Assembly: GCF_900098925.1 (NCBI RefSeq)
Contig: NZ_LT622360.1
Coordinates: 170,384 to 234,383 of the forward strand
Source of the DNA: Bacillus massiliglaciei
GTDB taxonomy: Bacteria > Bacillota > Bacilli > Bacillales > DSM-1321
DNA: 64,000 nt
Reading direction: 5' to 3'
Position 1 is the first letter of the stretch; each line of letters starts with the position of its first letter. Below are positions 3,647 through 47,238 of the stretch, in pieces. The notes below the pieces were generated by a model. The model saw nothing but the letters and a program-made list of their open reading frames with translations, was not told where the DNA came from and made no database searches. The translations under genes and the position numbers were made by a program.

Positions 3647-4501
3647 TTACTGCTGTTCATTGTTGGACAGAGCGTCTTTTAATTCTTTATCTTTAATTTC
3701 AACGTCTGAATCTTTAATTTCTTTATCTAAAATATCCTGCAGTTTAGCCTGGTCAATTTTTGCAACTTTCAGTTGGCGTTCAAGCTCAGCCTTCTTATCT
3801 TCGTAAGATTCCTTAGCTTTTTTATCAGTAAGCTGGATAATGTGATAGCCATAATCGGATTTCACAGGATCGCTGATTTCATTTTTCTTCAATTTATAAG
3901 CTGTCTCTTCAAATTCAGGAACCATTTCTCCTGCCCCGAACCAGCCAAGGTCACCGCCATTTTGGGCAGAGCCTGTATCAGTTGAATTTTCTTTTGCCAA
4001 TTTAGCAAAATCTTCCCCTTTATCCAGCTTCGCTTTGATTTCTTTTGCTTTCTTTTCATCATCGACAAGGATATGTCTTGCCTTGATTTGAGGTTTATAG
4101 TCTTCGTAGGCTTTTTTTACTTCATCTTCAGATACTTTAATATCCTTAATGGCAGCTTCTTCCTGAAGCATGCCAATCTTCAAGGAGCGTTTCAAGTCGT
4201 CTTCTGTTTTAAATCCTGAAGAAGCAAGAGCAGAATCAAAGTTTTCTCCCATTTGATCTTTAAGCTCTTTTAGCCGTGCATCTACTTCTTTATCCGTTAC
4301 TTTATATTTATCAGAAAGAACTTTTTCATATACCAGTTCTTGAAGTACTTGGTCCCCATAACGCTCTTTCAAGACATTGTATAAGTCATCTTGGGAGATA
4401 TCCCCCGCTTTAGATTCTACGACTGCTTTATCTCCGTTATTGCATCCGGTAAGGCCGATCAAACCGGCAGTAACAGCAATCGATAATGCCCATTTCTTCA
4501 T
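3647..4501 (-). CDS. prsA: PrsA post-translocation foldase lipoprotein (parvulin PPIase)
   Basis: A 284-residue lipoprotein. It has a signal peptide with lipobox LTGC (Cys20), an N-terminal chaperone region, a parvulin domain at about residues 135-230 (ARHILVDDEKKAKEI, GGDLGWFGAGEMVPEF, DYGYHIIQLTDKK) and a lysine-rich helical tail. PrsA sits on the outer membrane face and folds secreted proteins; it is essential or nearly so in Bacillus. ATG with AGGAG 8 bases upstream is the start; a TTG one codon earlier is less likely. The gene is monocistronic. In B. subtilis Hpr/ScoC represses secreted proteases that depend on PrsA, and hpr lies just downstream here. Confidence 0.97.
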   Translation of the reverse strand: MKKWALSIAVTAGLIGLTGCNNGDKAVVESKAGDISQDDLYNVLKERYGDQVLQELVYEKVLSDKYKVTDKEVDARLKELKDQMGENFDSALASSGFKTEDDLKRSLKIGMLQEEAAIKDIKVSEDEVKKAYEDYKPQIKARHILVDDEKKAKEIKAKLDKGEDFAKLAKENSTDTGSAQNGGDLGWFGAGEMVPEFEETAYKLKKNEISDPVKSDYGYHIIQLTDKKAKESYEDKKAELERQLKVAKIDQAKLQDILDKEIKDSDVEIKDKELKDALSNNEQQ

Positions 4502-37183: not shown

Positions 37184-37472
37184 AATCCTTTTTGGCCAGT
37201 GCTCGAAATAGGCTTCTGAGAAAATGCCAGGCGAGAATCCTGCTGTCTTCTTGGGAGTTTTTTTAATGTCTGGAAAACGAACGTATGATTGGTTTTTTGT
37301 GATAAAAAGGTGTAAAATAAAAAGATAAACGAATTATTGGAAACTCAGTTTTTATAGAAAAATGTGCTTGAAACTCTGTTATGATTGGAACAGAAGCATA
37401 CCTGCCCGGCAGGTTAGAAAAAGCTGTGAATGGCCCCAGAAATGGGGCTGATTGTATATAAGGAGGTTTCAT

Positions 37473-40400
37473 ATGTCACTCCAATTTCTGATTGGAAGGT
37501 CAGGTACAGGAAAAACGTCATATATTTTAGATGAAATTCGCAGCAGGCTGAGAGAAGAACCGGATGGCAATCCGCTCCTTTATCTGGTGCCTGATCAAAT
37601 GACGTTCTTGTCTGAATATAAGCTGGTGAAAACACCGGATTTGGCAGGCATGGTCAGGACGCAGGTTTTCAGCTTTAGCAGGCTTGCCTGGCGTGTCTTG
37701 CAGGAAACCGGCGGGATGACAAGGATTCATTTGGACAGCGTCGGCGTTAATATGCTGATTAGGAAAATAATAGAAGACAAAAAAGAAGACCTGAAGATGT
37801 TCCGGCGATCAGCCGATAAAACAGGATTCATTGCACAGCTGGAAGAGATGGTAGCAGAGTTCAAGCAGTATTGTATCGAACCTGCTGATATTGCTGCCTT
37901 CATGAAAGGGGAGGAACCTGAGAACGGAATATCAGATAAACTCCATGATTTAGAATTGATTTATCAGGCCTTTGAAGATCGGTTGGCAGGGAAATACCTT
38001 GATTCAGAAGATTACTTCACATTGCTGGCTGAAAGAATGGAGTCGTCATCCTTTTTGAAGGAGGCGGATATTTATCTTGACGGCTTCTATAGCCTAACTC
38101 CTCAGGAATTAATGATTGTCGAGGGGCTGATGAAATACTGCCGCAGTGTTACAGTCTCCCTTACCTTGGATGAAGCGTACAGGCAATCTCCTCCCGAAGC
38201 CCTTCACCTGTTCAGGCAAACAGGAAATACGTATCATCAAATCTATCAGGCGGCTTTGCGGCTTGGGATTCCCGTTTTGGAAGATCTGTTGCTGGAGACA
38301 GAAGGCCGGTTCAGCCAAAATCGGGCTATAAAGCATCTTGAAAGCAATTTTGCTGTCCGCCCTGCAAAAGAGTATAAAGGAAATCCGGGAGTTTCCATTT
38401 CCCAAGCGGTCAGCAGAAGGGCAGAAGTAGAGGGGGTGGCAAGGAAAATCCGGGCTCTTGTCAGGAACGGCAATCTCCGGTACAGGGATATTGCGATACT
38501 TGTCAGGAATGGTGCGGCATACCATGATTTATTGGAGACTGTCTTCAATGATTATCAGATTCCTGTTTTCATAGATACAAAAAGGACCATGCTTAATCAC
38601 CCTTTAATTGAATTGATCCGTTCTACTTTAGAGATTCTGACGGGCAACTGGAGATATGAATCTGTTTTCCGGGCTATTAAAACAGAGCTGCTGTTTCCCT
38701 TGCAGCCTTCTCATGAAAAAATGCGTGAACAAGTGGACAGGCTCGAAAACTATGTCCTGTCACGAGGGATCAAGGGACAGCGTTGGACCTCGCCGGAAAG
38801 GTGGACTTACCGGCGTTTCAGGGGTCTGGAACTAGAAGAAAAGGCTCAGACAACAAAAGAGCTTGAATTGGAAAATGAATTCAATGATCTGAAAGAATTG
38901 TTCACAGTGCCTATTATGAAGCTGGGCCGCCGGGTTAAAAGAGCGATAACCGGACGGGAAATGTCTGAAGCTCTGTACTTGTACCTTGAAGAGCTTCATA
39001 TCCCGGAAAAATTGGAAAAGGCAAGGCTTGAGGCAGAGGAATCAGGTGATTTGGTTGCAGCCAGGGAACATGAACAATCCTGGAATGCCGTCATTGATTT
39101 ATTGGATCAATTTGTTGAGCTGCTCGGAAATGAAGAGGTGAGCCTGAAGAGTTTTTCCACGATTATCGAAACGGGATTAGAGACCCTGGAGTTTTCTCTT
39201 GTGCCGCCGGCTATTGATCAGGTAGTTGTCGCTAACTTGAATCTATCCAGGATTGACGATGTTCATACGGCTTTCGTCATTGGCCTTAATGAAGGAGTTC
39301 TTCCGGGCAAAGTATCAGCAGACGGTATATTTTCTGATAATGATCGGGATGTGCTTCTTTCACGGGGCCTTGAAGTAGCTCCCGGGTCAAGCCTGCGCTT
39401 ATTGGATGAAGAATTTACGGCCTATAAGGCATTCACAACGCCTGCCCAGGCACTCCATCTCTCTTATCCGCTTGCTGATGAAGAAGGGAAGGCTTTGCTG
39501 CCGTCTTCCTATTTAAAGCGGGTACGGGATGTTCTGCCTCATCTTACTGAAACCTTTTATACGAATGATCCTTCCGAATTGCCGGAAGAAGAGCAGGCAG
39601 AATTTGCGGTGAATGCTGATGTTTCCCTGTCCTATTTGACAGCGCAGCTTCAGCTGAAGAAAAGAAATTATCCTATGTCACCGGTTTGGTGGGACGTCTA
39701 CAATGCTCTTATTTCCGATGATTTATGGAAACACGAAACATCAAGAGTATTGTCCAGTTTGTTTTACCAAAATAAAGCACAAGCACTGGCAGAGCATACA
39801 ACAAGGGATTTATATGGTGAAAATATTTCCACAAGTGTGTCCCGCATGGAAATGTTCAACAGCTGTCCATTTTCTCATTTTGCTGCTTATGGATTAAAGC
39901 TGAAGGAGAGACAAGTGTTTCGTCTGGATGCCCCGGATATCGGTGAAATGTTCCATGGCGCCTTGAAAATGATTTCCGATTATTTATATGAAAATCAAAT
40001 TTCCTGGGCCGCACTGACGAAGGAACAATGCATGATGCTTGCAAAAAAAGCGGTGGATAATCTGGCTCCTAAACTTCAGAATCAAATCTTGCTAAGTACG
40101 AACCGCCACCACTATCTGAAACGTAAATTAGAACAGGTAATCGGCAGGGCTTCGCTTGTTTTAAGTGAACAAGCCAAACTAAGCGGCTTTGCTCCGGTTG
40201 GCTTGGAACTGGGATTTGGAAAAAATGGGCAGCTTCCTCCGCTCACATTCACGCTGAAAAATGGAGTGAAGATGGAGCTTATGGGGAGAATTGACCGAGT
40301 GGATAAAGCAGTAGACGGAGAAGGTGTGTTTCTTCGGGTTCTTGATTATAAATCGAGCGAGAAGGAATTAAATGTAAGTGAAGTGTATTATGGGCTGGCT

Positions 40401-40967
40401 TTGCAAATGCTGACATACCTTGATATTGTCATTACTCATTCACAGGAACTGGTGGGAGAACATGCTGTTCCTGCCGGGGTGCTTTATTTCCATGTGCATA
40501 ATCCGGTTGTGAAATCAAAAGGGATGATGAGTTTCGAGAAAATTGAAGAAGAAATCTTCAAGAATTTTAAAATGAAAGGTTTGCTTCTTGGCGAACCGAA
40601 TGTTGTTCAGCTGATGGACCATACGCTTAGTGCGGAAGGATCCAGCAAGTCGAATATTGTACCGGCGGGCTTCAAAAAAGACGGCACATTGTCTGCCGCC
40701 TCAAAAATCGCCAGCAGTGAAGAATTCTCTTTGCTGAAAAATCATGTTCGCCATGTGTATGAAGAAGCCGGAAACCGAATGGTAGAGGGAGATGTAGGAA
40801 TTGCTCCCTATAAATTAAAGGACAGGATGCCTTGCACCTTTTGTTCTTACAAATCTGTCTGCCAATTTGACCAGAGTTTAGAGGATAATGATTACAGAGT
40901 TCTGCAGGCTAAAAAACAAGAAGAGGTGCTGGACATGATCAGAAGGGAGGAGGAGCAGCATGACTAA
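37473..40967 (+). CDS. addB: Helicase-nuclease subunit AddB
   Basis: A 1164-residue protein (B. subtilis 1166). Partner of AddA in double-strand break resection to Chi. Walker A at the N-terminus (LIGRSGTGKTSYIL), a degenerate helicase body, a C-terminal RecB-type nuclease domain (RVLDYKSSEKELN; YYGLALQMLTYLD) and the iron-sulfur cysteines (FNSCPFSHFAAYG; then CTFCSYKSVCQFD) are intact. ATG with AAGGAGG 7 bases upstream. Its end overlaps the addA start by 8 bases, so the subunits are translationally coupled. Confidence 0.97.
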   Translation: MSLQFLIGRSGTGKTSYILDEIRSRLREEPDGNPLLYLVPDQMTFLSEYKLVKTPDLAGMVRTQVFSFSRLAWRVLQETGGMTRIHLDSVGVNMLIRKIIEDKKEDLKMFRRSADKTGFIAQLEEMVAEFKQYCIEPADIAAFMKGEEPENGISDKLHDLELIYQAFEDRLAGKYLDSEDYFTLLAERMESSSFLKEADIYLDGFYSLTPQELMIVEGLMKYCRSVTVSLTLDEAYRQSPPEALHLFRQTGNTYHQIYQAALRLGIPVLEDLLLETEGRFSQNRAIKHLESNFAVRPAKEYKGNPGVSISQAVSRRAEVEGVARKIRALVRNGNLRYRDIAILVRNGAAYHDLLETVFNDYQIPVFIDTKRTMLNHPLIELIRSTLEILTGNWRYESVFRAIKTELLFPLQPSHEKMREQVDRLENYVLSRGIKGQRWTSPERWTYRRFRGLELEEKAQTTKELELENEFNDLKELFTVPIMKLGRRVKRAITGREMSEALYLYLEELHIPEKLEKARLEAEESGDLVAAREHEQSWNAVIDLLDQFVELLGNEEVSLKSFSTIIETGLETLEFSLVPPAIDQVVVANLNLSRIDDVHTAFVIGLNEGVLPGKVSADGIFSDNDRDVLLSRGLEVAPGSSLRLLDEEFTAYKAFTTPAQALHLSYPLADEEGKALLPSSYLKRVRDVLPHLTETFYTNDPSELPEEEQAEFAVNADVSLSYLTAQLQLKKRNYPMSPVWWDVYNALISDDLWKHETSRVLSSLFYQNKAQALAEHTTRDLYGENISTSVSRMEMFNSCPFSHFAAYGLKLKERQVFRLDAPDIGEMFHGALKMISDYLYENQISWAALTKEQCMMLAKKAVDNLAPKLQNQILLSTNRHHYLKRKLEQVIGRASLVLSEQAKLSGFAPVGLELGFGKNGQLPPLTFTLKNGVKMELMGRIDRVDKAVDGEGVFLRVLDYKSSEKELNVSEVYYGLALQMLTYLDIVITHSQELVGEHAVPAGVLYFHVHNPVVKSKGMMSFEKIEEEIFKNFKMKGLLLGEPNVVQLMDHTLSAEGSSKSNIVPAGFKKDGTLSAASKIASSEEFSLLKNHVRHVYEEAGNRMVEGDVGIAPYKLKDRMPCTFCSYKSVCQFDQSLEDNDYRVLQAKKQEEVLDMIRREEEQHD

Positions 40968-42306
40968 AAGCAGCATACCGGAACTTCCGGCAGATGTGAC
41001 ATGGACAGAGGATCAGTGGAAGGCGATTTGGGCTAAGAATCAGGATATTCTGGTGGCAGCTGCCGCGGGTTCCGGAAAGACGGCCGTTCTTGTGAATCGT
41101 ATCATTCAAAAGGTGCTCTCTGAGGAAGAACCAATCAATGTGGATGAACTTCTTGTCGTTACGTTTACGAATGCCTCTGCTGCCGAAATGCGGCATCGAA
41201 TCAGCGAAGCGCTCGAAAAGGCAATCGATGAAAACCCGGCGTCGCAGCATTTGCGGAAGCAGCTGAGTCTGATTAATAAGGCCTCGATTTCAACCTTGCA
41301 CTCTTTTTGTCTGGAAGTGATTCGGAAATATTATTATAAAACGAATATTGATCCAGGTTTTCGCATTGCGGATTCCACAGAGGCGGAACTGCTGCGTGAT
41401 GAAGTGATGGAGGATTTATTTGAAAATCAATATGCTCAAAGCGATAATGAGGCATTTTTCAAATTGGTGGATGCTTTTACCAATGACCGCAGCGATGAAG
41501 AACTGCAGCGTATGGTACGGGCACTCCATGATTTCTCCCGTTCGAATCCAGACCCGGGAAAGTGGCTGGACCAGGCGGTTTCTATGTACGAGCTGGATGA
41601 AACAGCTGAGATTGAAGACCTGCCATTTCTAGCTGCCCTTGCCTTCGATCTCAATTTGCAAATCGAGACGGCCAGAAGTTTGCTTGAAAGGGCCATGGAG
41701 CTGACAAAAGTTCCGGGCGGTCCGGCACCGCGGGCGGAAACGTTTCAGGAGGATTTACAGATTATTGATAGGCTGTCGAAGGCCAGGGAGATTTCATGGG
41801 AGAGGCTGCACGAAGAGATTCAAACAGTCAAATTTCCAACAGCTAAGCGCTGCTCTGGATCTGATTTCAACAAGGATATTGTAGACAGAGCCACTAAATA
41901 CCGGGATAAGGCAAAGAAGGTCATTAAGGGACTGCAAGAAGAGCTTTTCTCAAGAAAACCGGAACATTATCTTCAGGATATGAGGGAGCTAAAGGATTAT
42001 CTGCAAACATTGGTCTCGCTTGTCAAACAATTTGATGAACGCTTTTTTACGGCAAAAGCTGAAAAGAATCTGGTCGATTTCTCGGACCTTGAACATTATT
42101 GCCTGGACATTCTGACAGGCGAAATAGATAAGGGAGTACGTATGCCTTCAGAAGCAGCCCAGGAATACCGCCGTCAATTTAAAGAAGTGCTTGTGGATGA
42201 ATATCAGGATACAAACCTTGTTCAAGAGTCGATCTTGCGCTTGGTGACGGCTGATGGGGAAGAATCCGGCAATTTATTCATGGTTGGAGACGTGAAGCAG
42301 TCGATT
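40960..42306 (+). CDS. addA: AddA helicase-nuclease, 5' exon (interrupted by group II intron)
   Basis: The first 449 codons of AddA, a UvrD-type 3'-5' helicase and nuclease. Visible: Q-motif region WTEDQWKAIWAKNQDILVAA, Walker A AAAGSGKTAVLVNRI, FTNASAAEMRHRI, and Walker B with DEYQDTN. The exon ends inside LFMVGDVKQSI; the protein continues YRFRLAEP in the second exon, restoring the conserved GDVKQSIYRFR. Without splicing, translation runs three codons into the intron and stops (VRP-stop), giving a 452-residue product without the later helicase motifs and the nuclease domain. Start ATG overlaps addB; RBS GGAGGAGG. Confidence 0.95.
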
Positions 42307-42506
42307 GTGCGCCCATAAGGGTGTTGCATATTTCACCATTAGGCGGTGAATTAACTACAGAAACGGTTAATATACCAACCGACTTATCTTGGAGGGAAAC
42401 CGAAGAGGGAGTGTAGCATGTCGGGATAAGTCACGAGTTAGCCTAGACGGAAAAGTTAAGACTGAGTGGCGAGGTATAATGGATAAGTATAAGGAAGAAA
42501 GCTATA

Positions 42507-42632
42507 CTGCTTGAAGAACAGTCCGAGTGGGGCAATGCTCGACCTTCTAGGAAACCGTCTGTAACCTAGAATCCATCCTGCTTTACGTACTATATGGATG
42601 CGATAAAGCATGGGAAAGTGTACTAAATTGAT
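42507..42632 (+). other. Intron exon-binding sites EBS2, EBS1 and delta in domain I
   Basis: CTGCTT (42507-42512) is the exact complement of exon bases -12 to -7 (AAGCAG), giving EBS2-IBS2. AATTGA (42626-42631) pairs with exon bases -6 to -1 (TCGATT) with one G-U, giving EBS1-IBS1; T42632 extends this by a G-U pair to -7. The base just 5' of EBS1, A42625, pairs with the first base of the 3' exon (T), the delta rule of IIA introns. Base pairing was checked by hand. Confidence 0.7.
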
Positions 42633-42905
42633 ACGCTGACCTAGTTTCTGATTTAATAGGATGGACGCACCCACAGATGTGGGTAAAGGATGAACGTTCC
42701 TTCCGAGAACTTATCGAGCCTGTATGCAACATACTAAATGGGGATTACCTAAGTTGGAATGCCAATAATGGCTATGTACAAAGGTACTGAATATCCAATA
42801 TGGTAACGGAGTCCTCGTAGTAGTCTGAGATAGGGAAAGCCTATCACATGGCGAAGGAGGACAGCTTGCAAGGTATAAACAATGACGAAAGGAGCGAAAT
42901 GCTCT

Positions 42906-44525
42906 ATGCAAAATTCAGACGTTGTGTTATACAATCTATCCAAACAAGCTAGTAAAGAAGATTACCGTTATGACAGATTGTACAGAAATCTATACAACAA
43001 AGAGTTCTATATCAAAGCCTATGCAAAGATATACAAAAATAAAGGTAGTGCAACAAAAGGAATAGATGAAGAAACGGCAGATGGTTTTGGGGATGAAAAG
43101 ATAGAATCCATTATCTCTTCATTAAAGGATGAGACATACCAACCAAAACCAGTAAGAAGAGTAAATATCCCAAAGAAAAACGGTAAAACTAGACCGCTTG
43201 GTATCCCGACCTTCACAGACAGAATTGTTCAAGAAGTTTGTAGGATGATGTTAGAAGCAATATATGAACCAACGTTCTCGGAGTTCTCTCATGGTTTTAG
43301 AGAAAAACACAGTTGTCACACGGCTCTTGTTCAAATCCGAAATACATTCACAGGGGTAAATTGGTTCATTGAAGGAGACATAAAAGGATTTTTTGATAAC
43401 ATAAACCATCATGCACTCATAAATATACTTCGTAAGAAAATAAGTGACGAACGCTTCATACGGCTCATTTGGAAATTTCTTAGAGCAGGGTATCTCGAAG
43501 ATTGGAGATATAACAAAACGTATAGTGGAACGCCACAAGGTGGAATTGTCAGTCCGATTCTAGCGAACATTTACCTTAACGAATTTGATAACTATGTTAC
43601 AAAGGAACTAAAACAAGAGTTTGACCAAGGAGAGCCAAAAAAGCGAAAGCGAAATACCGAATATCGCAAATATGATATGAGGAATCAGAGGCTCAAAAAG
43701 AAAATTGATGGGACAACTGACGGAGAAAAAAGAGAAGCCATGACACAAGAATACAAAGAGAATAAGAAGATACTGCTTAATCTCCCCTACTACGAACCCG
43801 AAAATCAAGGATATAAAAGTCTAAAGTATGTAAGGTACGCAGACGATTTCCTAATCGGAGTAAATGGAAGCAAGGAAGATTGCCAATGTATAAAAAATAT
43901 GATTGGTAAATTCTTAAGCGAAAAACTTGAACTAGAAATGTCAGAAGAAAAGACCCTTATCACACACAGTTCTAAGCCTGCAAGGTTCTTAGGATATGAC
44001 ATAATGGTTAGCCATGACCTAACAGTTACAAAGGATAAAAACAATGTTGCAAAAAGAAGTTACCGTGGTTATATCCAGTTAAGAATTCCTAAGGGAACTA
44101 TTGAAAGGGTCATCGTAGATAGAAAAATGGTCAAAGATATCGATGCGAAGCAATGGGATATGCTTCACAGACCAAGATTATTAGGTCTCTCAGACTTAGA
44201 AATTGTACAAACTTACAATGCCGAATTAAGAGGATTATACAACTACTATTCCCTAGCAGAAAATGTATCCAAGAAAATGTGGCAGTTAAAATACGTCATG
44301 GAATATAGCTGTCTTAAAACACTCGCCAACAAATACAAGTCCACAGTTGCCAAAATGAAAACAAAGTACAAACAAGGCAAATACTGGGGAGTTAAGTATC
44401 AAACGAAACATGGTGAGAAAATAGCTTTCTTCTATAAAGACGGTTTCACAAAAAGAAAAGTGAGTCACAAAAAGGATATTGATATAAAACCTAACCTTTA
44501 TGTATATCAAGGTAAAACAATTTAG
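42906..44525 (+). CDS. Group II intron reverse transcriptase/maturase (endonuclease domain split off by frameshift)
   Basis: About 539 residues: RT domain with GIPTFTDRIVQEVCRMMLEA, FIEGDIKGFFDNINHHAL, SGTPQGGIVSPILANIYLNE and the active site LKYVRYADDFLIG, then maturase domain X (LRGLYNYYSLAENVSKKMWQ; KTLANKYKSTVAKMK). The protein helps the intron RNA fold and copies it during retrohoming. The frame stops at KPNLYVYQGKTI just before the expected HNH segment, which continues in another frame. ATG 42906 follows AAAGGAG; an ATG eight codons earlier is an alternative. Splicing may still work because RT and X are intact. Confidence 0.93.
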   Translation: MQNSDVVLYNLSKQASKEDYRYDRLYRNLYNKEFYIKAYAKIYKNKGSATKGIDEETADGFGDEKIESIISSLKDETYQPKPVRRVNIPKKNGKTRPLGIPTFTDRIVQEVCRMMLEAIYEPTFSEFSHGFREKHSCHTALVQIRNTFTGVNWFIEGDIKGFFDNINHHALINILRKKISDERFIRLIWKFLRAGYLEDWRYNKTYSGTPQGGIVSPILANIYLNEFDNYVTKELKQEFDQGEPKKRKRNTEYRKYDMRNQRLKKKIDGTTDGEKREAMTQEYKENKKILLNLPYYEPENQGYKSLKYVRYADDFLIGVNGSKEDCQCIKNMIGKFLSEKLELEMSEEKTLITHSSKPARFLGYDIMVSHDLTVTKDKNNVAKRSYRGYIQLRIPKGTIERVIVDRKMVKDIDAKQWDMLHRPRLLGLSDLEIVQTYNAELRGLYNYYSLAENVSKKMWQLKYVMEYSCLKTLANKYKSTVAKMKTKYKQGKYWGVKYQTKHGEKIAFFYKDGFTKRKVSHKKDIDIKPNLYVYQGKTI

Positions 44526-44722
44526 AACAAAGACTTAGTGCAAGAGAATGTGAACTCTGTGGAGATAATTCTCCCGATACGAAGTTTGAAATTCACCATG
44601 TTAATAAGGTGAAGAACTTAAAAGGCAAAACGTATTGGGAAATGATGATGATTGCAAAACAGAGGAAAACATTAGTTGTGTGTAAGGATTGTCATAACGA
44701 AATTCATAAAACTAGAAGATAG
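44522..44722 (+). pseudogene. Detached HNH endonuclease domain of the intron protein
   Basis: The frame LEQRLSARECELCGDNSP...FEIHHVNKVKNL...VVCKDCHNEIHKTRR is the C-terminal En (HNH) domain, with CxxC...CxxC zinc ligands and both HNH histidines. It lies one base out of frame with the upstream maturase and lacks a start codon or RBS. Adding an A in ACAATTTAGAAC (about 44517-44520) would give T-N-L-E and join the two. Loss of En usually prevents second-strand cleavage and so mobility. Confidence 0.85.
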
Positions 44723-44737
44723 ATATTTGTAAGTGGA

Positions 44738-44832
44738 GAGCCGTATACTCTGAGAGGAGTACGTACGGTTCGGAGGGGAGTGTCTGGAAACCTACTGTAG
44801 AAATACAGCAAGGCGCTGGGGGCTTACCCTAC
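44738..44832 (+). ncRNA. Group II intron domains V and VI
   Basis: Domain V (44738-44771) is 34 bases: GAGCCGTA pairs with TACGGTTC, TACTCT with GGAGTA, the loop is GAGA and the bulge CG. Domain VI follows with AGTGTC/GGCGCT and inner CTGTA-gaaa-TACAG helices, an AGGG/CCCT base stem and a candidate bulged branch-point A at 44826, seven bases from the 3' end. Confidence 0.88.
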
Positions 44833-47238
44833 TATCGGTTCCGGCTGGCCGAGCCCAATCTGTTCCTCGGGAAATATTTACGCTTCAGCCATGATGGAAA
44901 GACGTCCGGACTGAGAATTGATTTAAATCAAAATTTCAGGAGCCGAAAAGAAGTGCTCGATGGAACGAATTATATCTTCCAGCAAGTAATGGGGAAAAAG
45001 GTAGGGGAAATTGACTATGATGAAGATGCACAGCTGAAAAAAGGTGCTCCATATCCGGAGGATGAACAGCACCCGATTGAACTGCATCTGATAGACGGAG
45101 CCCCAAGCGAGGAAACAGATCAGGAACAGGATGCAGCGGAGCCTGGCTTTGAAGCAGAAGGGCTGGAAAATGCCGAATTGGAAGCACGAATGATGGCAAA
45201 ATTAATTAAGAAGGCCATTCAGGAACAGCAGCTGATTTTCGATACGAAAACAAAGCAATACCGTCCGATTATGTATCGGGATATCGTAATCCTTCTTCGC
45301 TCAATGCCGTGGGCTCCCCAAATTATGGAGGAATTTAAGAAACAGGGAATTCCTGTTTATGGGAATTTATCTACCGGCTATTTCGAAGCGACTGAAGTAG
45401 CGATCATGCTTTCGCTGCTGAAGGTGATTGATAATCCGCAGCAGGATATTCCGCTTGTTGCTGTGCTTCGCTCCCCGATCGTCGGATTGAATGAGGAAGA
45501 GCTTGCTCAAATTCGGCTGATGAATAACGGAACATATTATGAGGCTTTGGCTGATTTTTATCGGATGGGCAGCACAACAGAATATCCAGGACTTTACGAA
45601 AAAGCTGCTTCCTTCTATACAAAACTCGTGAAATGGAGAAAGCTTGCCAGAAAGGAAGCATTGTCAGATTTAATTTGGCAGTTGTTCCGCGAAACGAAAT
45701 TTTATGATTTTGCGGGGGGGATGCCGGGCGGAAAACAAAGACAGGCAAATTTACGGGCTTTGTATGACCGGGCAAGACAATATGAAGAAAGCTCTTTCAG
45801 GGGCTTGTTCCGTTTCTTGCGATTCATTGAGAGAATGCAGGAACGCGGTGATGATTTGGGAGCTGCCAGAGCTCTTGGAGAACAGGAAGATGTGGTCAGA
45901 CTGATGACAATCCATTCATCAAAAGGTCTCGAGTTCCCGGTTGTCTTTATCGCAGGCTTGTCCAGGCAGTTTAACCAGATGGATTTGCGTAAATCGTATT
46001 TATTGGATAAGGACTACGGATTTGCTTCAAAATATGTCAATCCAGAACTAAGGATTACGTATCCGTCACTTCCGCAGATGGCATTTAAGAAAAAGAAACA
46101 GCTGGAAATGATTGCTGAAGAAATGCGTGTTTTATATGTCGCCTTAACAAGGGCTAAGGAGAAAATTCATTTAATTGCAAGTGTCAAGGATGCCGATAAG
46201 AGTATTCTTGAATGGTCCGCTAACGGCTCAGGCCAGGAGTGGCTCCTTGATGATTACATCCGGGCAGGAGCGAAAAGCTACCTGGACTGGATTGGTCCTT
46301 CCATCATTCGGCATAGGGACTGCCAATCCATCTCACAAATCGGCAGCGATTCAAATGCACCGGATTTTATTACGGCACATCCTTCAAGCTGGTCGGTCTC
46401 TGTTGTCCCTACTGAAGAGCTGGCCGTGGATAATCAGCAGGAACAAATGGAGGAGGAACAGCTGCTTGAAAGGGTGAAACAGTCAGAAAGGGTGGATATT
46501 TCTTCAGATTTTTCACATCAGATTGAAGAACAGCTTCATTGGGAATACAGCCATTTGGATGCATCTGTTCATCGGTCCAAACAGTCGGTTTCAGAATTAA
46601 AGAGACAGAATGAAGTAAGGGATGACCGAAGCTCCACAGAACTGCTGCGTAAATTCAAGCGGCCTATCACAAAGCGGCCGGCCTTTATGCAGGAAAAAAC
46701 GCTGACTCCTGCAGAGCGGGGAACCATTACCCACTTAGTGATGCAGCATATAGATTTTACAGCAGATGTTACGAAAGAATCTATAGAGGATCTGGTCCGG
46801 GAGTTAATTCGCCGGGAGCTGATGACAGAGGAACAAAGCCTTGCCGTTGTGCCGGAGGCCATTCTCGGGTTTTTCTTGACTCCGGTAGGCCGGCGGATGC
46901 TAAAAGCTGAAGATATCAGGAAAGAGGTGCCGTTCACCATGTCTTTCCCAGCCAGTGAGGCATATCCAGACTGGCGGAATGGTGAGGAAGAAATTCTCGT
47001 TCAGGGTGTAGTGGATTGTTTGTTCGAAGATGAAGAAGGCCTTGTTCTGATTGATTATAAAACGGACGGAATTACCGGACGTTTTGCCAATGGATTTGAA
47101 GGCGCGCGCGATATCTTGGCAGATCGCTATCGGAAACAGCTTGAACTCTATACCAGGGCAATCGAAGGTATTTTAAGAAAAAAAGTTGCTCAGCGCTATT
47201 TATTCTTTTTTGACGGGGCCCACTTGTTAGAATTGTAG
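44833..47238 (+). CDS. addA: AddA helicase-nuclease, 3' exon
   Basis: The remaining 801 codons: YRFRLAEPNLFLG (rest of the motif broken by the intron), IDLNQNFRSR, the 2B/1B region, TIHSSKGLEFPVVFIAG (helicase motif V), MRVLYVALTRAKEKIH (motif VI), an acidic linker, and the C-terminal nuclease with GVVDCLFEDEEGLVLIDYKT and YRKQLELYTRAIE. All helicase and nuclease residues are intact, so the gene shows no decay beyond the intron, which argues that it is still expressed by splicing. In B. subtilis sbcD-sbcC follow; here the gerP operon converges on addA. Confidence 0.95.
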   Translation, partial: YRFRLAEPNLFLGKYLRFSHDGKTSGLRIDLNQNFRSRKEVLDGTNYIFQQVMGKKVGEIDYDEDAQLKKGAPYPEDEQHPIELHLIDGAPSEETDQEQDAAEPGFEAEGLENAELEARMMAKLIKKAIQEQQLIFDTKTKQYRPIMYRDIVILLRSMPWAPQIMEEFKKQGIPVYGNLSTGYFEATEVAIMLSLLKVIDNPQQDIPLVAVLRSPIVGLNEEELAQIRLMNNGTYYEALADFYRMGSTTEYPGLYEKAASFYTKLVKWRKLARKEALSDLIWQLFRETKFYDFAGGMPGGKQRQANLRALYDRARQYEESSFRGLFRFLRFIERMQERGDDLGAARALGEQEDVVRLMTIHSSKGLEFPVVFIAGLSRQFNQMDLRKSYLLDKDYGFASKYVNPELRITYPSLPQMAFKKKKQLEMIAEEMRVLYVALTRAKEKIHLIASVKDADKSILEWSANGSGQEWLLDDYIRAGAKSYLDWIGPSIIRHRDCQSISQIGSDSNAPDFITAHPSSWSVSVVPTEELAVDNQQEQMEEEQLLERVKQSERVDISSDFSHQIEEQLHWEYSHLDASVHRSKQSVSELKRQNEVRDDRSSTELLRKFKRPITKRPAFMQEKTLTPAERGTITHLVMQHIDFTADVTKESIEDLVRELIRRELMTEEQSLAVVPEAILGFFLTPVGRRMLKAEDIRKEVPFTMSFPASEAYPDWRNGEEEILVQGVVDCLFEDEEGLVLIDYKTDGITGRFANGFEGARDILADRYRKQLELYTRAIEGILRKKVAQRYLFFFDGAHLLEL

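Follow-up and report, generated by a model that had tools for sequence, protein, structure and literature searches.

The addA gene of Bacillus massiliglaciei, carried on a 64,000-nt stretch of contig NZ_LT622360.1 (positions 170,384 to 234,383; hereafter the window), is split by a group II intron of 2526 nt (42307..44832, forward strand, phase 0). We consider it probable that this intron belongs to a mobile lineage of the ML (LtrA-type) class that homes to the GDVKQSI^YRFR motif of addA, has spread between species and has then decayed to forms that only splice. Altogether, 16 addA introns were analysed: 14 at the exact site, the window included, and two (genomes G033 and G807) positioned 6 nt upstream.

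The intron opens with GTGCGCCC at 42307, whose GTGCG fits the GUGYG 5' end, and closes with ..CCCTAC at 44832; these ends are common to the other introns at the site. The Rfam model of domains V and VI, RF00029, matches 44736-44832 on the forward strand with 63.6 bits (gathering score 40; E 3.6e-10), and no other Rfam match in the window reaches a gathering score. The Rfam D1-D4 models matched nothing in the window. The predicted fold of 44736..44832 (-39.9 kcal/mol, z -3.9) leaves an A unpaired at 44826, the seventh base from the 3' end of the intron, which is likely the branch point.

Insertion has taken place between the Ile and Tyr codons of the motif. Exon 1 (40960..42306, forward strand, 449 codons, ending GDVKQSI) and exon 2 (44833..47238, forward strand, 801 codons and a stop, starting YRFRLAEP) are both open, keep the AddA motifs and match the addA_Gpos model TIGR02785 (E 6.6e-163 for exon 1 and 9.8e-271 for 44953-47238); exon 1 also matches PDB 3u44 chain A (E 1.6e-160). 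The strip of 30+30 nt across the joined exons, FMVGDVKQSIYRFRLAEPNL, is the same in two congeners with an uninterrupted addA, and exon 1 is 70-77% identical to its counterparts in 35 congeners. A sequence-only reading of the window had placed the intron in this motif and proposed that its removal restores a 1250-residue frame from undecayed exons; the Rfam match, the ends, the empty site and the 449 + 801 open codons bear this out. Its predicted 452-residue unspliced product agrees with the length of the unspliced frame, which meets a stop codon at 42316..42318 (forward strand). That reading also named a second intact addA as an observation that would count against it. Searches of the source genome (G000; 4.14 Mb, 18 contigs) with each exon found no second addA, the only other matches being helicase-type frames of 751 and 762 aa with 27-42% identity. 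Given intact exons, a phase-0 insertion in a helicase motif and searches that turned up no other addA, splicing should be required for AddA production.

The intron-encoded protein (IEP, 547 aa, 42882..44525, forward strand) comprises a reverse transcriptase (RT) with an intact YADD and a maturase domain X (PF01348, E 7.8e-15), with no HNH domain in frame. It matches TIGR04416 with 305.3 bits (cut-off 300) as well as RVT_1 and Intron_maturas2, and its closest PDB structure is LtrA (E 2.2e-155; next 1.3e-43). The HNH endonuclease part lies out of frame with the IEP at about 44516..44719 (forward strand). A second copy of the intron, 2,527 nt long, is present on another contig (C17:144164-146690) in what looks like an intergenic place, and differs from the window copy by two substitutions and one base in length. 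Its 613-aa frame includes the HNH domain (PF21368, E 6.1e-27), and AAGCAGTCGATT lies upstream of the intron at both sites. On these sequences the window copy is a defective member of the ML lineage, its HNH part out of frame. Inspected by eye, the C17 copy stands directly before a terminator-like hairpin, upstream of an L-lactate dehydrogenase-like gene.

The near identity of the two copies raises the question of an assembly artefact, in which the C17 copy or the one-base difference in the IEP would stem from misassembled repeats. Two 2.5-kb copies in an 18-contig assembly invite the suspicion, as does the N found where another repeated intron has its junction. However, each copy is internal to a contig of about 0.9 Mb and has flanks of its own, and the IEP frame of the Lysinibacillus xylanilyticus intron is broken at the same boundary, which makes an artefact highly improbable. 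The breaks at this D/HNH boundary, at 44516-44525 in the window and at L013 6638-6644 in L. xylanilyticus, apparently arose independently.

According to passages of a 2015 review, most group II introns of bacteria are located elsewhere than in housekeeping genes (PMC4424553), in agreement with the sequence-only reading. A protein scan of named genomes returned 15 relatives of the window IEP, and in six of them the intron is bounded by the same codons of addA: Bacillus sp. MRMR6, Bacillus sp. EB106-08-02-XG196, Kurthia gibsonii, Lysinibacillus piscis, L. xylanilyticus and Metabacillus lacus. The seventh addA relative, Lysinibacillus sp. 13S34_air (L023), was analysed through G585 (L073). Further carriers were sought with a junction pattern that requires GTGYGCCC no more than 9 nt past the DVKQ codons; it misses introns with other ends and was applied to overlapping genome samples. 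The order sample of 397 genomes yielded three with addA introns (G000 and G176 at the exact site, G033 upstream), the class sample of 398 also three (G000, G576, G585), the 24 genomes in the family of G176 one, and the 261 in the family of G576 ten (nine at the exact site and one 6 nt upstream). G806, G576 and G840 are counted once together with K. gibsonii, L. piscis and L. xylanilyticus. Of 36 genomes of the genus, two (G000 and G033) have an exon 1 that ends prematurely at this position. Among 43 family genomes, a DNA match to the intron was found only in the two own copies and in G005, where it covers 472 nt at 71% while addA is open.

Several candidates were discarded. Two further pattern matches each in the order and class samples are not introns, and the matches in G178, G275 and G545 were ruled out as addA introns on inspection. 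G008 has a short addA frame (719), but its motif is uninterrupted and that stretch contains no Rfam intron.

In all 16 carriers the addA frames are open on both sides as far as the sequence goes, in three of them up to a second intron. These second introns, in L. xylanilyticus (894 nt, L013 3437-4330), G813 (891 nt, L071 1184-2074) and G807 (893 nt, L070 1209-2101), carry no long frame and interrupt addA at DEYQD^T, 89-95 nt before the main intron.

Intron proteins with intact motifs are more alike than the AddA proteins around them: 80 versus 61% identity between the window and MRMR6, 81 versus 45% between MRMR6 and Kurthia, and 93 versus 54% between Kurthia and G930. This excess, together with the tendency of the exon-binding loop to follow the host codons (see below), argues that the intron moves between species. 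The gap to the window is small for copies with a mutated RT site (62 versus 56% in M. lacus, 61 versus 55% in G176). In a midpoint-rooted tree the exact-site proteins group in a single clade (100/100), from which the window protein branches first (100/98). An alternative is that introns inserted independently into a conserved motif, with no special relation to repair genes. The conservation of the motif and the location of 5 of the 15 IEP relatives in other genes fit this explanation. The other 10 lie in addA, mutS, radC or recA, a raw count without a background rate, and the single protein clade means that the exact-site introns are not independent inventions of the site; we therefore regard independent insertion as unlikely, though not negligible.

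Recognition of the site would involve intron-binding site 1 (IBS1, TCGATT, 42301..42306) and exon-binding site 1 (EBS1, TATGGA, 42593..42598), both on the forward strand and assigned by covariation over the 14 exact-site introns. The EBS1 loop is closed by a stem read by eye (42579-42585 / 42604-42610). The base beside EBS1 in the aligned loop, an A at 42592 (forward strand), is the putative delta, opposite delta' (T) at 44833. An automatic covariation scan, comparing intron columns with the six exon bases before the junction, gives the EBS1 hairpin loop the top rank among 531 windows, and likewise among 4,248 tests of window and offset; in a wider scan of 20 introns, other sites included, it ranks only third. 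Pairing of each loop with its own exon reaches 64 of 84 in the automatic register against 54.4 in shuffles (p 0.02), 72 of 84 against 58.2 when the MRMR6, EB106 and M. lacus loops are registered by hand (p about 1e-4), and 57 of 66 against 48.7 in the 11 loops on which both registers agree (p 0.005). EBS1 ends in GCT in 6 of 6 hosts with an AGY serine codon and in 2 of 8 with TCN (Fisher p 0.0097). As far as these alignments go, the loop tends to follow each host's Ser-Ile codons, with covariation of moderate strength.

Two points detract from this fit. The shuffle p-values are optimistic owing to the relatedness of the introns, the automatic register giving only p 0.02, and EBS1-IBS1 of the window copy pairs at only 4 of 6 positions, with mismatches at -1 and -4. 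The second exon-binding site (EBS2) had no clear partner in the covariation scan of 20 introns. One candidate for it, CTGCTT in domain I, pairs with AAGCAG in the window; the Shimazuella alba and Bacillus wudalianchiensis introns carry the same letters but have other exons, so that CTGCTT is probably structural and was rejected. The sequence-only reading had held that all contacts could be assigned by hand. This holds only in part: the covariance-model check it proposed is positive for domain V, an unpaired A lies at 44826 and EBS1 is located by covariation with 4 of 6 positions paired, but its hand assignment of EBS2 is not confirmed.

The mismatches bear on a further possibility, that the intron is a recent, poorly splicing arrival which leaves addA largely off, the exons being intact only for lack of time. 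Against the codons of Bacillus sp. MRMR6, the window's EBS1 letters pair at 6 of 6 positions, and the window and C17 copies hardly differ in sequence, which fits a recent arrival. However, the exons are fully open with their AddA motifs kept, and equal or poorer pairings (M. lacus 4, G925 4 and G927 3 of 6) are found in open addA genes as well. In M. lacus the intron has been resident long enough for its RT to decay despite 4 of 6 pairing. We accordingly find a recent, failing insertion quite unlikely.

Returning to the decay of a homing intron, the IEPs at the addA site fall into three states. RT and HNH motifs are present in 9 of the 16 (MRMR6, EB106, Kurthia, L. piscis, G813, G925, G927, G930 and G807), G927 carrying TPKGG in place of TPQGG. 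The HNH part is lost or damaged with RT motifs intact in three (the window, L. xylanilyticus and G835). In the remaining four, M. lacus (FADE), G176 (YADS), G585 (YANA) and G033 (HAGD), the RT active site is mutated, motif A is changed and HNH is absent. The frames of these four RT-dead proteins are open over 439-514 aa and still match RVT_1 and Intron_maturas2. A mutated RT site in an open frame with domain X kept, the combination expected of a splicing-only intron, is thus seen in M. lacus, G176, G585 and G033; the window copy, with its YADD kept, does not belong with them.

In neutral simulations at half the observed distance, the frame stayed open in 0 of 500 runs for each of M. lacus, G176 and G585. 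Of the RT residues invariant in 11 other proteins of the exact-site lineage, where the C17 copy stands in for the window, these three have lost 32, 38 and 45%, respectively, compared with at most 10% in either RT or domains X/D for control proteins, which are the 11 left out in turn. With a 15-row reference set the RT losses are 28, 24 and 31% and the X/D losses 17, 7 and 13% (controls at most 11 and 14%), and G033 has lost 21% in RT and 23% in X. The excess of RT over X losses is significant for G176 and G585 (p 3e-5 and 4e-5 with 11 rows; 0.03 and 0.04 with 15 rows). Where measurable, the ratio of nonsynonymous to synonymous substitution (dN/dS) is 0.09-0.20 in pairs with an RT-dead protein and 0.05-0.13 in intact pairs. 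These low values imply that the RT parts are still constrained, as expected if they bind intron RNA. A single origin of the three exact-site RT-dead cases was rejected by the approximately unbiased (AU) test (p-AU 0.0035), as was one of M. lacus with G585 (0.0008), and the RT-dead G033 pairs with the intact G807 in the tree (100/100). The AU tests and the position of G033 together indicate at least three independent RT losses, and hence, on sequence grounds, apparent splicing-only forms that arose at least three times.

Several results weigh against this interpretation. Invariant X/D residues are also lost, at 26, 16 and 22% in M. lacus, G176 and G585 with the 11-row set. The excess of RT over X losses is not significant in M. 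lacus (0.16 and 0.15) and is absent in G033 (0.71), and, in the comparisons that allow both estimates, dN/dS in the RT part does not exceed that in X. A single origin was not rejected for M. lacus with G176 (p-AU 0.2) or G176 with G585 (0.12), and all four RT-dead proteins sit on long branches. Furthermore, the junction pattern found no RT-dead intron in the other 23 genomes of G176's family, so that long vertical persistence is unsupported.

We postulate that the intron would enter empty addA genes of other Bacillales by retrohoming, because the stretch of the motif hardly varies at the protein level and is similar at the DNA level. After insertion, full-length AddA would be made only by splicing, aided by the maturase domain of the intron's own protein and, for the window copy, possibly also by the intact C17 copy. 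Selection for AddA would keep splicing while mobility becomes dispensable, and the intron would decay, probably losing the HNH endonuclease first, as in the window copy, and then the RT active site, leaving an immobile, splicing-only intron.

Ll.LtrB resides in a relaxase gene. The addA lineage resembles it and other LtrA-type introns in its closest PDB protein, in the RT, X and HNH domains of intact copies and in site recognition via EBS1; it differs in its home, addA, in the lack of an in-frame HNH in the window copy and in the mutated RT site of four relatives. A group II intron in recA of Geobacillus kaustophilus, a related bacterium, was reportedly described by Chee and Takami in 2005; there too the host is a housekeeping gene of recombination, albeit a different one. 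A closer parallel is O.i.I2 of Oceanobacillus iheyensis, which lies in radC and encodes an ML-class IEP lacking YADD in an open frame, the sole known bacterial case according to a passage of the 2015 review (PMC4424553). As described there, it shares with the RT-dead addA introns a degenerate ML IEP with an open frame in a DNA-repair gene; whereas O.i.I2 is a single intron, the addA cases number four, of which three share one site and the fourth lies 6 nt upstream, with intact relatives at the same sites. TeI4h of Thermosynechococcus elongatus makes such cases less rare than the review has it: it has YAGD for YADD and very low mobility, with efficient mobility upon reversal, as stated in part of PMC2882425. 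On that account TeI4h carries a single active-site change, whereas several RT motifs are changed and HNH is missing in the RT-dead addA cases. MatK and other degenerate organellar maturases, as outlined in the same review (PMC4424553), have lost RT motifs and kept domain X in a setting where the host gene must be spliced. The RT-dead addA IEPs similarly keep domain X in a gene requiring splicing; MatK is thought to serve several chloroplast introns, in contrast to the addA IEPs, each of which is still inside its own bacterial intron. In the literature searched, by titles and abstract openings and with most subscription journals outside the search, we found no report of a group II intron in addA or recJ. 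Group II introns of this kind are thus well known, and the new part is the addA site with its repeated loss of mobility.

The passage from a selfish intron to a fixed, protein-dependent one has so far been studied mostly in organelles. Here, one bacterial insertion site presents complete mobile, endonuclease-defective and RT-mutated forms, with independent repeats, so that one can test directly whether introns cease to be mobile as a consequence of residing in a host gene that requires splicing. The connection with end resection raises the question of whether recombination genes are a preferred refuge of introns.

A second break-repair gene is interrupted in the same genome. The recJ gene of G000 carries, within the Asp codon of GDYDA(D)GVSST (DHH motif), a different, 2,787-nt group II intron with its own 635-aa protein (C15:188507-191293, L084). 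The recJ junction pattern was found in 2 of the 397 order-sample genomes, G000 and G176, which are also the two order-sample genomes with an exact-site addA intron and belong to different families. The recJ intron of G176 occupies the same site; its 976 nt contain no frame longer than 60 codons, and it shows 84% identity over 675 nt. A split recJ in every carrier of the addA intron is ruled out: recJ is uninterrupted in G927, an exact-site carrier and the sole other one checked directly. G033 showed no recJ junction match to the order-sample pattern. The split recJ, the out-of-frame HNH part, the C17 copy and the recurrence in 16 genomes all go beyond the sequence-only reading.

That reading held that end resection in this strain depends on splicing, perhaps as a conditional control of recombination. 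A dependence of AddA on splicing would follow from the intact exons and the absence of a second addA from the searches; for conditional control, we found no evidence of any condition. In its fuller form, this explanation has conditional splicing of addA gate recombination and, with recJ split, places both end-resection pathways under intron control. In B. subtilis these pathways are AddAB and RecJ with RecQ or RecS, and losing AddAB and RecJ gives a sensitivity like that of RecA loss, according to passages of PMC7031210. The chance that the second recJ match falls among the two other addA-intron genomes is 2/396, about 0.005, taken as the fair figure because recJ was examined on account of G000. 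However, no sensor for conditional splicing was identified, recJ shows no such interruption in G927 or G033 within the searches above, and a permissive host or shared donors would yield the same pattern. Regulation of this kind appears very unlikely.

Among the 15 relatives of the window IEP, the 10 in repair genes comprise the seven in addA, group II introns in mutS of Shimazuella alba (L018) and radC of Ectobacillus panaciterrae (L017), and an ML-type intron in recA of Cytobacillus sp. S13-E01 (L020). The other five lie in NlpC/P60- or lysozyme-type genes (L015, L019, L022), a FabK-like gene (L021) and a Toprim-like gene (L016), the last two assigned from the downstream exon only. A possible reason is that repair genes are conserved enough to serve as targets across species and are not needed in each generation; cells may then put up with incomplete splicing, yet selection would act against losing the gene function. 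Such traits would favour intron entry and slow conversion to a splicing-only form. An effect of RecJ on retrohoming of Ll.LtrB appears in only some of the E. coli assays described in PMC3636086; a link of repair genes to retrohoming itself is possible but weak. Tentatively, and as something we would sooner bet against, bacterial mobile introns may share a niche in break-repair genes (addA, recJ, recA, radC, mutS), where they would time and again turn into immobile elements that depend on the host and only splice. In G000 and G176, which represent different families, AddAB and RecJ would then be obtained only via splicing, making the start of recombination ribozyme-dependent and perhaps tuned.

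Some minor features accompany these loci. Directly 5' of addA lies addB (37452..40967, forward strand; TIGR02773, 1492 bits), with an 8-base overlap. The mutS intron protein of Shimazuella alba has YAND at its RT active site. In Cytobacillus sp. S13-E01 the recA intron stands before YSSVRLEV, and RF02004 at 2255-2426 and RF00029 at 3879-3973 match upstream, so this recA may hold two introns. Among 150 of 361 candidates scored in G000, 33 RF00029 matches have 44.9-45.1 bits; those read belong to an intron with a 419-aa protein (e.g. C12:54459 and 56344; L081). Nine pairs of these matches are exactly 1,885 apart and may be scaffolding artefacts, given the N at the junction in the one pair read.

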